Assembly (NCBI GenBank): GCA_017635565.1
Contig: JAGBLE010000013.1
Span: 1-62,056, forward strand
Reading direction: 5' to 3'
DNA from: Bacilli bacterium
GTDB taxonomy: Bacteria > Bacillota_I > Bacilli_A > RFN20 > CAG-826
Length of the DNA: 62,056 nt
Position numbers and translations under genes: made by a program. Below, in pieces: positions 46,665 through 53,323 of this stretch (position 1 is the stretch's first letter; each line of letters begins with the position of its first letter). The notes below the pieces were generated by a model. That model was given only the letters and a program-made list of their open reading frames with translations, was not told the DNA's origin and ran no database searches.

Positions 46665-47510
46665 ATGAAAAGCGAACTAGAAGTAGACATTTATGAACAA
46701 GCTATAACAACAAAATTTCGTCAATTATTATGGTCGAGATTTTTAAAAGCCATTCACGAATTTAAACTCATCAGTGAAGGAGACAAAATTTGCGTTTGTA
46801 TTTCTGGTGGAAAAGATTCAATGATTATGGCAAAGATGTTTATGTGCTTACAAAAATTCATGAACTTTAAATTTGAAGTGAAATATCTCGTCATGAATCC
46901 TGGTTATAATTCTCTTAATCTTGAAATGATAAAAAAGAATCTAAAAACCCTCAACATCCCCGCTGAAATACATGAAACAAACATCTTTGAAATCGCTAAT
47001 GCACAAGATAAAAGTCCTTGTTTCTTATGCGCTAAAATGAGAAGAGGAGCCTTATATAACATCGCTAAAAGTATGGGGTGTAATAAAATCGCTTTAGGCC
47101 ACCATTATGATGATGTCATTGAAACAACTTTAATGAATATGTTATCAAGTGGGTCTTTCCAAACCATGCTTCCTAAACTTCATTCCACTAATTATGAAGG
47201 AATGGAATTAATTAGACCTCTATATTACATAAGAGAAAAAGATATCATCAGATTTAGCAAAGAATTTAATCTCAATTTCATTCAATGTGCCTGTCGCTTT
47301 ACTGAGAGTTACACTCATAGTGAAGACGGAATTGGAGAAAGTAGAAGAAGATATATTAAAAATTTAATTAAGGAAATAAAAAAAGAAATTCCCGATGTCG
47401 AGAAAAATCTTTTTTCTTCCGCAAACAATGTCACATTTGACATGATTCTTGGATATAAAGTAAATAGTGTTTATCATTCATATCTTGAAAATTATGATGA
47501 TGATAAATAA
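46665..47510 (+). CDS. TtcA-family tRNA 2-thiolation protein (PP-loop ATPase)
   Basis: N-type ATP pyrophosphatase of 281 residues. The PP-loop SGGKDSM is near residue 46. CFLCAKMRRG near 118 gives the CxxC pair and QCACRF near 208 the third cysteine, matching the three-cysteine 4Fe-4S site of TtcA, which makes 2-thiocytidine at tRNA position 32. LGHHYDDVIETTLMNML is the second substrate motif. The gene seems monocistronic and lies convergent to the transporter-amidase fusion, whose possible link to tRNA queuosine is interesting but unproven. Other PP-loop thiolases of the TtcA/TtuA group are possible. Confidence 0.85.
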   Translation: MKSELEVDIYEQAITTKFRQLLWSRFLKAIHEFKLISEGDKICVCISGGKDSMIMAKMFMCLQKFMNFKFEVKYLVMNPGYNSLNLEMIKKNLKTLNIPAEIHETNIFEIANAQDKSPCFLCAKMRRGALYNIAKSMGCNKIALGHHYDDVIETTLMNMLSSGSFQTMLPKLHSTNYEGMELIRPLYYIREKDIIRFSKEFNLNFIQCACRFTESYTHSEDGIGESRRRYIKNLIKEIKKEIPDVEKNLFSSANNVTFDMILGYKVNSVYHSYLENYDDDK

Positions 47511-47515
47511 TTGAT

Positions 47516-49648
47516 TTACTTTTTAAAAGGGTAAACCTTTTCAAAATTGCTTGCTAATTGTAAGACCGTTTCATCTTCCATATATTTACCAATTATTTGT
47601 AATCCGATTGGAAGATGATGTTTTCCTAAGCCAATAGGAACAGAGCAAGCAGGATTTCCAACAAAATTAACAATAAAGGTCATCGCAAACCCAATTAATG
47701 GATCAATTTTTTGACCGTTAATCATTTCTGGTCCTTTTGTATTATTGTTCTTATCGTTTTTAACAGGCATACAGCAGCTAACTGGAGAAATAATTAAATC
47801 ATAATCTTTAAAGACTTCATCAAAGGCGTTTTTGATTGCTTCTTTTGCTTCACCATATTTCACTAATTTATCTTTTTCTTTGATTGCTCTTTCGTTCCAA
47901 TAAAGTAATTCTTTTGGTAAACCTTTTTCTAAATCTAATCCTTTATTTTTATATTCTAAGCATTCACTTGCAGATTCTTGAGAAATCGCAATTCCCCAAA
48001 GTTCAGATAATTCATTGTTGGTGTAGCGGATATCAAAATTTACTCGATCCACTATCGCCCCATATTTTTCTAAGGATTTAGCTTTTTTATAAACTTTCTT
48101 TTTGATTTGATTTTCCACAGGGAAAATTCCAAAATCATCAGTGTAAGCAATCTTCATTCCTTTGATTGGTTTATCTAAGAATGACAAATAATCAACATTT
48201 TCTTTTTCTTCACTAAATGGGTCGCTACTATCAAAACGTTGCATTTCATTAAGTAAAATTGCAGTGTCTTTAACTGATTTTGTTAATCCACCATTTTGAC
48301 AAAATGGGAAATAATTTGGATCAACACTACTAGCGTAATGGATTGGAACAGTTCCAGTAGATGCTTTATAGCCAAATATTCCAGTCCAACTTGCAGGAAC
48401 TCTTATCGATCCTCCAGCATCTCCTCCTTCAGCAATTGGAAGTAAACCAGCGCTTACCGCAGCGGCACTTCCTCCACTTGATCCACCGGAATTATATTTT
48501 AGGTTATATGGGTTTTTAGTTGCCCCATATCTTAAATTGTCACAAGTTCCTCTAAATCCATATGTCGGAGCGTTACATTTTCCTATCGCAATTCCGCCTA
48601 ATTTTTCCATCGCTTCACAAAATAAGGAATCACTACTATCAATCCTATCAAGAGAAGGAATTCCTCCACAGCTATTACTCCATCCTTTTTTTGAATCTAA
48701 AAAATCTTTTAAGCCAAAAGGAACTCCAGCGAAAGGTCCAACATATTCTCCATTATTAATTCTTTTTTCTAATTCAAGTGCTTTACTTTCTGCCTCATCA
48801 AATTTTGTATAAGTAAAAGCATTAATCTTTTTATTATATTTATTTATTCTTCTTTCAAAATATTGAACAACTTCTAAAGGAGTTAAGATGCGGTTATTAA
48901 CTAATTCTCCTATTTCAAAGGCTGACATCTTTTCTAATTCATAAGTTGTTTTAATATATTCTTCTCCAACACGATTATCTTTCCAATATTTTGAAACTCG
49001 ATATCCAATTGGGGTAAAGATAATCTCGCTGAATAGTTCGATAATTGCTCCTAATACTGATGCACCAAGACATTGCCAAATTGTCCAACGAACTTGAATA
49101 GCAAAAGGAATATAAGGTAAAACATAGAAAGCGAGAAAGACAAATAAGAAATTATCCACTATTTGACCTAAAAAAGTCGAAATATGGCTTCTTAAAGTAA
49201 ATGCAATTCTTCCATCAGGATTACGTTTAATCCTTTTTCCAACAAAAACATTAACGTAATTATTGGTTAAGGCGGAAATAATAAAGGCAACTGTGCTCGC
49301 TAATAAAATTGACCACGAACTAAATGCAAAGACGTCATATTTAGGATTATTTAAAGCAACGCTTACTGAAAAGAAAGCTAATCCAACAATAAGATTAATA
49401 GTGACCGCTAATATCGATAAATAATTAGCAGCTTTAGCCCCAAAGTGTTTTGTCACAACATCAAGGATCAAAAAAGAGAGCCAAGATATGCATATTCCCG
49501 CATTGATTGCTAAAAACGGAAGGGAAACGAGTTGATATTGGGCGAGAATATTCATCCCAACAATTGTTAAACAAAAAAGAATAACTACAGTTTTAGGAAC
49601 GGCCTTAAACAAAAGAGTTATTCTTTTGAAAATAGAATAATTTTTCAT
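47516..49648 (-). CDS. Fusion: YhhQ/VUT-type transporter + amidase-signature enzyme
   Basis: One open frame of 710 residues joins two families. Residues 1-235 are six membrane helices of the YhhQ/VUT family, known as queuosine-precursor transporters; the signature 'SxxxxxxGQxxDxxxF' appears as SHISTFLGQIVDNFLF near 155-170. Residues about 236-710 are an amidase-signature hydrolase (GatA-like fold): Lys in FGLKDF near 312, the Gly/Ser-rich KYNSGGSSGGSAAAV near 388, and GGDAGGSIRVPAS near 408 with the cis-Ser and nucleophile Ser. All triad residues look intact, facing the cytosol. A promoter and a structured leader precede it. The chemical substrate is unknown. Confidence 0.9.
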   Translation of the reverse strand: MKNYSIFKRITLLFKAVPKTVVILFCLTIVGMNILAQYQLVSLPFLAINAGICISWLSFLILDVVTKHFGAKAANYLSILAVTINLIVGLAFFSVSVALNNPKYDVFAFSSWSILLASTVAFIISALTNNYVNVFVGKRIKRNPDGRIAFTLRSHISTFLGQIVDNFLFVFLAFYVLPYIPFAIQVRWTIWQCLGASVLGAIIELFSEIIFTPIGYRVSKYWKDNRVGEEYIKTTYELEKMSAFEIGELVNNRILTPLEVVQYFERRINKYNKKINAFTYTKFDEAESKALELEKRINNGEYVGPFAGVPFGLKDFLDSKKGWSNSCGGIPSLDRIDSSDSLFCEAMEKLGGIAIGKCNAPTYGFRGTCDNLRYGATKNPYNLKYNSGGSSGGSAAAVSAGLLPIAEGGDAGGSIRVPASWTGIFGYKASTGTVPIHYASSVDPNYFPFCQNGGLTKSVKDTAILLNEMQRFDSSDPFSEEKENVDYLSFLDKPIKGMKIAYTDDFGIFPVENQIKKKVYKKAKSLEKYGAIVDRVNFDIRYTNNELSELWGIAISQESASECLEYKNKGLDLEKGLPKELLYWNERAIKEKDKLVKYGEAKEAIKNAFDEVFKDYDLIISPVSCCMPVKNDKNNNTKGPEMINGQKIDPLIGFAMTFIVNFVGNPACSVPIGLGKHHLPIGLQIIGKYMEDETVLQLASNFEKVYPFKK

Positions 49649-49672
49649 AAATCTCCTTGGTTTTATTTTATA

Positions 49673-49703
49673 TAGCGAAGGATTTAGAGGCCGAACTCCG
49701 CTA
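49673..49703 (-). ncRNA. Structured 5' leader, candidate riboswitch
   Basis: The predicted transcript starts at about 49703 with an eight-pair hairpin, TAGCGGAG/CTTCGCTA, and a 15-base loop. An A-rich tail follows, then AAGGAG (49658..49653) and the ATG. The loop end and 3' arm, AAATCCTT (49685..49678), can instead pair with AAGGAGATTT over the ribosome site, leaving a two-base bulge. The two folds exclude each other. The layout resembles small preQ1-I switches, but the conserved bases of that class are not matched. Confidence 0.45.
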
Positions 49704-49709
49704 GAGGAT

Positions 49710-51718: not shown

Positions 51719-53323
51719 TTATTTGATTCTTTCTGTGGTTTCTTTATCAAAGAAATAAAGTATGTCTTTATTGATGTTAAATGTTATCTCTGCTTCACTT
51801 TTTGGTTTGGTTTTTGTTGAAGATTTAAGAAGCAATCTTTGACCATTTAAATAAGTATAGATAACCAATTCATATCCTAATAATTCAACATAATCACAGG
51901 TAGAAGAGATGTCATTAGATAAATCTTCGTTTGTCGCTTCACCCTTAAGATAAATATTTTCTGGTCTAATACCTAAAACAACTTCTCCTTCATGATTTTC
52001 TAATAACTTTTGTTGTTCTTTAGTTAGATCAATCTTAATTTCTTTTTCACCAGGTATAACAAAATATCCATTTTCATATTTACCATCGAGGAAATTCATA
52101 CTTGGAGAACCGATAAATCCACCGACAAACATATTGACAGGATTGTCATATACTTCTGTTGGTGTTCCGATTTGTTGAACATATCCATCTTTCATAATGA
52201 CGATACGGTCCGCCATTGTCATCGCTTCAGTTTGGTCATGAGTAACATAAATTGTTGTCGCTCCAACTCTTTCGTGTATTTTAATGATTTCGCTTCTGGT
52301 TTGAACTCTTAATTTTGCATCCAAGTTACTTAAAGGTTCATCCATTAGGAAGACCTTTGGATGTCTAACAATTGCTCTACCAAGGGCTACTCTTTGACGT
52401 TGGCCACCACTTAATGCAGCAGGTTTTCTAAATAAGAACCTCTCTAAATCTAATATCTTAGATGCTTTATAAACTTCTAAATCAATTTCATAAGCACTAT
52501 ATTTGCGATATTTAGTCAAAGGCACTTCATTATTTTTGAGATATTCTAATTCTTTTTCTAAGTTCTGAATTTGGTTTTCTTTTTGAGAAACGCTATCTTC
52601 AAAAATCTTTATCGCCAATTCTAATTTCTCAATATATTTCTTTTCTTTTTCAGCTTTTTTCTCATCAGCTTCATTACTGAGTTCAACTTTTGTTTTTTCT
52701 AATTCATCTTTATATAAAGCAAGTTCTTTATTGTTTTTTTGAACTTGATTAGATATTTTTTTGATTTCATTTTCGTGTTCTTTAATATCTAGTTCATTAA
52801 TTCCAATCTTTTGTTTATATAGTTGTTTAATTTTTTCTTCGTTAGCGAATATTTCTTGATAGATTTGATCTCTTTCTAGTAGCAAATCCTTAGCTTCGTT
52901 TTTCTTACTTATTTGGCGATTAAGCTTTTTAATTTGTCTTAAAAGTTCGTAATTCTTTTTTCTGATTTCATCAATTTCTGGATTTTCTTCGTAAATTGGG
53001 AATTTGACTTTTCTTAATTTCAAAGCAAACGCCATATTTTGATAGACAGTCATATGAGGATAAAGAGCGTAGCTTTGGAAAACCATCGCGATATCACGGT
53101 CTTTAGGAGCGACATTATTAACAAATAAGCCATCAATTAATAATTGACCACTTGTAATATCTTCAAGTCCTGCCACCATTCTTAATGTTGTGGATTTACC
53201 ACATCCAGAAGGTCCAACAAAAACAATGAATTCTTTGTCTTTAACTTCTAAATTGAAATTAAATACTGCTTGAACACCATTTGGATAAATTTTATTGATA
53301 TCCTTAAATAAGAGATTTGCCAT
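51719..53323 (-). CDS. Sugar ABC transporter ATPase (MsmK/UgpC type) with coiled-coil insertion
   Basis: ABC ATPase of 534 residues, about 160 longer than MalK/MsmK. Walker A GPSGCGKST is near residue 37 and the Q-loop segment VFQSYALYPHMTVYQNMAFA near 82. From about residue 105 to 285 there is a charged, Lys/Glu-rich coiled coil inside the helical subdomain. The signature LSGGQRQRVALGRA is near 303 and Walker B VFLMDEPLSNLDAK near 325. The C-terminal OB-fold regulatory domain follows. It energises the two permeases encoded at 57546..59398. Mycoplasma homologues carry a comparable insertion. It ends the carbohydrate locus. Confidence 0.94.
   Translation of the reverse strand: MANLLFKDINKIYPNGVQAVFNFNLEVKDKEFIVFVGPSGCGKSTTLRMVAGLEDITSGQLLIDGLFVNNVAPKDRDIAMVFQSYALYPHMTVYQNMAFALKLRKVKFPIYEENPEIDEIRKKNYELLRQIKKLNRQISKKNEAKDLLLERDQIYQEIFANEEKIKQLYKQKIGINELDIKEHENEIKKISNQVQKNNKELALYKDELEKTKVELSNEADEKKAEKEKKYIEKLELAIKIFEDSVSQKENQIQNLEKELEYLKNNEVPLTKYRKYSAYEIDLEVYKASKILDLERFLFRKPAALSGGQRQRVALGRAIVRHPKVFLMDEPLSNLDAKLRVQTRSEIIKIHERVGATTIYVTHDQTEAMTMADRIVIMKDGYVQQIGTPTEVYDNPVNMFVGGFIGSPSMNFLDGKYENGYFVIPGEKEIKIDLTKEQQKLLENHEGEVVLGIRPENIYLKGEATNEDLSNDISSTCDYVELLGYELVIYTYLNGQRLLLKSSTKTKPKSEAEITFNINKDILYFFDKETTERIK

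Follow-up and report, generated by a model that had tools for sequence, protein, structure and literature searches.

The window, by which we mean the whole stretch of 62,056 nucleotides analysed, carries on its minus strand (47516-49648) a single reading frame that begins with ATG, runs without an internal stop and joins a queuosine-precursor transporter to an aryl-acylamidase-like amidase (Table 1). Pfam matched Vut_1 to residues 50-218 (E 1.7e-21) and Amidase to residues 259-696 (E 1e-84, with the entire profile covered), and an AlphaFold2 model of the fusion formed both folds (mean pLDDT 89). The central claim of the earlier note, that a transporter and a complete amidase share one frame, was thus borne out at exactly these coordinates, with Vut_1/TIGR00697 in one half and Lys-Ser-Ser in the other. 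The linker between the halves was in frame and conserved among the fusions found in other genomes, while the Met codon at the start of the amidase varied among them and was not conserved, making separate internal initiation unlikely as a shared feature. Two neighbours in the window were also noted, namely a PP-loop protein resembling the tRNA 2-thiocytidine synthetase TtcA (46665-47510, plus strand; 200 of 272 bits, below cut-off), whose gene is convergent with the fusion gene, and a MalK-type ABC ATPase (51719-53323, minus strand) with a long coiled-coil-like insertion between its Walker A and signature regions.

Table 1. Features of the fused gene and its leader; positions are those of the window.
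Feature	Position	Strand	Remarks
Fused gene, queuosine-precursor transporter and aryl-acylamidase-like amidase	47516..49648	-	710 aa; orthologous fusions in G168, G092 and G120
Amidase-signature domain, residues 259-696	47561..48874	-	PF01425, E 1e-84; nearest solved structures 4yj6/4yji
Nucleophile Ser414 in DAGGSIR	48407..48409	-	Invariant in the nine-member clade
Catalytic cis-Ser390 in GGSSGGS	48479..48481	-	Invariant in the nine-member clade
Catalytic Lys314	48707..48709	-	Invariant in the nine-member clade
Linker (cytosolic) and amidase N-terminus, residues 219-258	48875..48994	-	Stop-free; lacks a conserved internal start
Transporter half, residues 1-235, six TM helices, predicted S-component-like fold	48944..49648	-	Vut_1, TIGR00697, fold model
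Asn49 codon	49502..49504	-	Asp in 42/42 unlinked subfamily relatives; Asn/Thr in 8/8 amidase-linked members
Conserved leader, candidate divergent preQ1-I (type I-like) riboswitch	49653..49705	-	Ends on the Shine-Dalgarno GGAG; model R1
P1 hairpin of the leader	49674..49702	-	49696-49702 pairs with 49674-49680

Three more fusions were recovered from 224 genomes of the same family as the window genome (G168, 73% identity; G092, 69%; G120, 73%), all in genera other than that of the window genome. The G120 fusion lacks its 5′ end at a contig boundary, so that full-length fusions beyond the window genome came from two other genera (G168 and G092). An artefact of assembly or sequencing, in which a stop codon between two genes had been lost, might be suspected of an incomplete draft (73% complete), yet the recurrence of this in-frame fusion, with 69-73% identity and a conserved linker, in three further genomes leaves this reading virtually no probability and excludes chance or assembly error as the source of the fusion. 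Five further genomes (G067, G065, G251, G408, and G553) had a two-gene version of the pair, with the transporter 5′ of the amidase and the genes either overlapping by a few bases or separated by at most 6 nt.

The amidases of all nine loci (four fused, five abutting) formed one clade with a long stem (support 100/100) that stood apart from GatA and the other included amidases. Of five other amidases returned by the searches, three passed the GatA family model and two fell just below its cut-off. Searches at family, order, class, and phylum level, the last two of which covered samples rather than whole groups, found no clade amidase that lacked a linked transporter; a phylum sample of 392 genomes held no additional transporter-amidase pair, and a back-translated scan of genome contigs retrieved only distant amidases (Marinoscillum, 25%). 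The homologues were therefore not always separate and unlinked, the pattern that the earlier note had named as evidence against the module, since 9/9 were fused or adjacent. The transporter without an amidase was common (about 50 genomes). In the transporter tree, seven of the eight linked members formed one clade (100/100) that also had a long stem and spanned taxonomic families, while the eighth, from G553, sat on a long branch with uncertain placement. Because the linked-transporter clade crosses families, the gene phylogenies suggest that transporter and amidase travel together as a cassette, around which no further conserved neighbours were seen.

The amidase half was a full-length PF01425 domain with the Lys-cisSer-Ser triad, and Ser414 follows Ser390 by 24 residues, a spacing shared with characterised amidase-signature enzymes. 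By both sequence and fold, the closest solved structures were the bacterial aryl acylamidases 4yj6 and 4yji, with 4yj6 matching at 471 bits (E 2.9e-140), as compared to 221 bits for GatA, and with a structural match over the full length (TM 0.91, 36% identity). A disguised GatA was ruled out, both by the model score (TIGR00132, 219 bits, below the cut-off of 481) and by the position of the sequence outside the GatA group in the tree. Aryl acylamidases act on N-acyl arylamines, paracetamol among them, to release the amine, and one such enzyme converts paracetamol to 4-aminophenol and acetate (PMC9420511).

The N-terminal half passed the NCBIfam model TIGR00697, 'queuosine precursor transporter' (61.5 bits, cut-off 50.95), and scored 18 bits against E. 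coli YhhQ's own model (cut-off 252). Its fold model comprised six long helices (pLDDT 88) and found its nearest solved folds among the ECF S-components RibU, ThiT, PanT, BioY, and FolT (Z 9-12, with RibU, ThiT, PanT, and BioY at 9.9-11.7). Foldseek alone gave no match for the model at E < 0.001, and no solved relative of this half was found by sequence. Among 42 unlinked transporters, 59 columns reached at least 95% conservation, and 42 of these columns were kept in the linked members. Three were lost in 8/8 linked transporters, namely Asp49 (replaced by Asn or Thr), Thr111, and Phe186, while the remaining fully conserved acidic residues were retained. These changes are not independent of one another, given that seven of the eight linked transporters belong to one long-stemmed clade. 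In the model, residue 49 lies in the first loop, and it is the first loop that covers the ligand in ECF S-components. Asp49 would suit the positive amine of preQ1, and the loss of negative charge at this site hints at a cargo without a positive amine.

In G038, a distant transporter of this family (L030, 912-2920, minus strand) is encoded with a true queC (205.8 bits) on one side and queF (115.9 bits) on the other, on which basis its cargo is expected to be neutral preQ0, and it has Thr at position 49. Classical transporters located beside tgt (L021 and L023) likewise have Thr, and their genomes lack QueF, so that Asp is not required for preQ1 transport in every subfamily. One genome, G067, encodes both a linked Thr-type transporter and an unlinked Asp-type copy (contigs C106 and C198), each with its own leader.

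Upstream of the fusion lies a 53-nt leader, of which 34 distinct copies were collected from in front of transporters with and without the amidase. Linked and unlinked members shared one core, which was strictly conserved in seven linked members from several families (the start of the G120 gene is missing). When the covariance model R1 was run over 30 whole genomes, its matches lay solely upstream of such transporters, with one match per transporter gene, the exceptions being two near-threshold matches; at E < 1e-11, every match stood before such a transporter. Covariation was seen in P1, where both partners changed in two pairs (9 cells, compared with 2.0 after shuffling, 0/500) and the outermost pair exchanged A-U, C-G, and U-A; the columns of the pseudoknot helix P2 were nearly invariant. 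According to a review (PMC11625349), type I preQ1-I riboswitches are marked by UU, UC, an A-rich L3, a tail C, and a ribosome-binding site that lies within the tail. The leader carried each of these, with UU following the 5′ strand of P1, UC preceding its 3′ strand, an A-rich third loop, and a tail that holds both the ribosome-binding site and a C adjacent to AAGG. At the same time, it differs from type I in a longer L1 with a near-invariant GGCCUCUAAAU and in scoring below the Rfam gathering threshold, at which nothing in the window was matched; RF00522 gave 11.5 bits on the window leader (gathering score 39) and was the best match in relatives with shorter loops (21.9 bits, E 0.0067; 24.3 bits, E 0.0015). 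On these scores the leader is not filed as a member of RF00522, and by its sequence marks it looks like an element that works as preQ1-I riboswitches do. Control of yhhQ genes by preQ1 is known (PMC5372724). The exact leader core was found in no viral contigs. A second leader subtype (GACAGUUCG...CCAUCCUGUCGUUAAACAAAACCAGG) was observed upstream of the transporter at L084, L082, L083, L085, and L086, with apparent terminator hairpins following it at several loci; Rfam had no match to the L084 leader, even when this was run alone.

The complement of queuosine genes indicated which precursor these uncultured bacteria could use. TGT was present in 55/59 relatives, and QueA together with QueH in 30/30 genomes checked, with tgt, queA, and queH standing in a row on contig C20 of the window genome. 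QueF was found in 0/30, and none of the 30 held a real QueC (no match above 28 bits, whereas the true QueC of G038 gave 206 bits). The window genome itself, with QueF absent and QueC unconvincing, fits reliance on a salvaged precursor, and although its own absences carry little weight at 73% completeness, the same pattern is seen in relatives with more complete genomes. The presence of QueA and QueH and the lack of QueF and a real QueC make preQ1, rather than preQ0, the usable precursor. As far as the searches show, these bacteria would finish queuosine from preQ1 and could neither make preQ1 nor use preQ0. The same absences render preQ0, or a 7-carboxamide form (ADG) to be rebuilt by way of QueC/QueF, unlikely as cargo, and a route from the carboxamide (ADG) through CDG to preQ0 was rejected because QueC and QueF are missing.

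We propose that the leader, importer, and tethered acylamidase may constitute a preQ1-sensing queuosine-salvage module for acyl-capped preQ1, a reading that we hold with middling confidence. It is very probable that the module works in queuosine salvage, based on the pass at the TIGR00697 equivalog and on the type I marks of a leader located solely before these genes. It is plausible that the amidase takes the cap off a preQ1 conjugate after import, a step for which we judge the balance to be even. In its favour, all nine clade amidases are fused to or abut a transporter of the family, and the aryl acylamidase as nearest solved relative points to amine-freeing chemistry, so that N-acyl preQ1, preQ1 being a primary amine, would be a natural analogue of an acylamidase substrate. 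A capped amine is further suggested by the replacement of Asp49 by Asn or Thr in all linked transporters, by the Thr of the G038 protein, and by the co-occurrence of both types in G067. To our knowledge, no N-acyl preQ1 has been described as a natural product.

Past gene order and gene content, we infer every step of the mechanism, from a leader that binds preQ1 and a protein that transports to an active amidase whose substrate is N-acyl preQ1. When preQ1 is scarce, the leader would keep the ribosome-binding site free, and the importer would take up preQ1 with its aminomethyl group acyl-capped as an amide. The amidase, situated on the cytosolic tail of the importer, would cut this amide to yield free preQ1 and an acid, TGT, QueA, and QueH would then build queuosine in tRNA, and a rise in preQ1 would shut the gene off. 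The earlier note's suggestion that an imported amide or 7-deazaguanine conjugate is cleaved gains from the preQ1-type leader, the obligate linkage, the acylamidase-like enzyme, and the changed transporter residue; its placing of that cleavage at the membrane is better read as the cytosol at the inner face, in that the C-terminus of the transporter YhhQ faces the cytoplasm (PMC5372724).

The module might instead import free preQ1, with the fusion being a stabilised tandem pair and the amidase having a secondary role, for example to form or trim an amide at another place in the cell. Such an arrangement would accord with the placement of the transporter in a queuosine-precursor family, with a leader core that does not differ between linked and unlinked members, and with the lack of a second family transporter in G168, G092, and G065 at a threshold of E 1e-28. 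We consider it unlikely, however, as no amidase of this clade lacking the transporter turned up in the searched samples, Asp49, Thr111, and Phe186 were changed in every linked transporter, and G067 has a separate Asp-type transporter as well. Distinctly unlikely is that the cargo is some other amide-like 7-deazaguanine, such as a derivative of queuine or of the 7-carboxamide or an amino-acid-preQ1 conjugate, from which the amidase would produce a usable base. Aryl-acylamidase relatives are known to be broad. The cargo of QPTR transporters varies, from preQ0 and preQ1 in E. coli to queuine in Chlamydia (PMC11130926), but neither a carboxamide nor a carboxylate base could be used in the absence of QueC and QueF, while queuine has no amide and the QueA of these genomes implies a preQ1-using TGT.

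The cassette could also have been diverted to another N-acyl arylamine, for instance a dietary or drug-like amide, leaving the preQ1-type leader as a relic. The closest solved enzyme does act on paracetamol-like amides, and in Pseudomonas an amide transporter gene adjoins an amidase of this kind (PMC9420511). Against this stand the strict retention of the leader core in the seven linked members across several families and the fact that G168 and G092 keep queA and queH and have, at the threshold used, the fusion as their sole family transporter, and we therefore regard repurposing as very unlikely.

With QPTR/YhhQ/COG1738 transporters, the fusion shares its sequence family, the six-helix S-component-like fold, a preQ1-type leader, and a salvage-dependent host, and it differs from them in its C-terminal amidase, its distinct clade, and the Asn or Thr at position 49. 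The amidase half has the same Lys-Ser-Ser as the aryl acylamidases 4yj6/4yji over its full length, whereas it is joined to a nucleobase transporter and lies under a preQ1-type leader. The known queuosine salvage enzymes are QueK, Qng1, and QueL, the last of which likewise ends at preQ1 (PMC11130926). Like them, the module is proposed to make a TGT-usable base from a salvaged queuosine compound, although those are nucleoside hydrolases and a lyase, in contrast to an amidase joined to an importer. Fusions of transporters, QPTR among them, to TGT have been reported (PMC11130926), and these similarly unite a queuosine-precursor transporter with a pathway enzyme, the partner here being an amidase and not TGT. 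A 2024 survey that covered the fusions and neighbourhoods of queuosine transporters sought TGT fusions, and the word 'amidase' is absent from its main text (PMC11130926); full-text searches brought up no paper connecting queuosine or 7-deazaguanine salvage to amidases.

Bacteria and animals have in common the micronutrient economy of queuosine salvage, in which several steps and transporters are still missing. The importer-amidase would represent a further kind of salvage parallel to QueK, Qng1, and QueL, and its long-loop preQ1-type leader would widen the preQ1-I riboswitch class. The joining of a transporter to an acylamidase points to an amine-capped preQ1, a compound that has apparently never been looked for, together with the enzyme that would release it. 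We suggest, tentatively and at somewhat less than even confidence, that N-acylated preQ1 may be a real nutrient exchanged in microbial communities, served by a dedicated importer-acylamidase under a divergent preQ1 riboswitch. Which queuosine compounds microbes exchange thereby becomes a directly testable question, and, if the suggestion is true, queuosine metabolism would gain a new point of entry, and a hitherto unknown natural metabolite would come with it.
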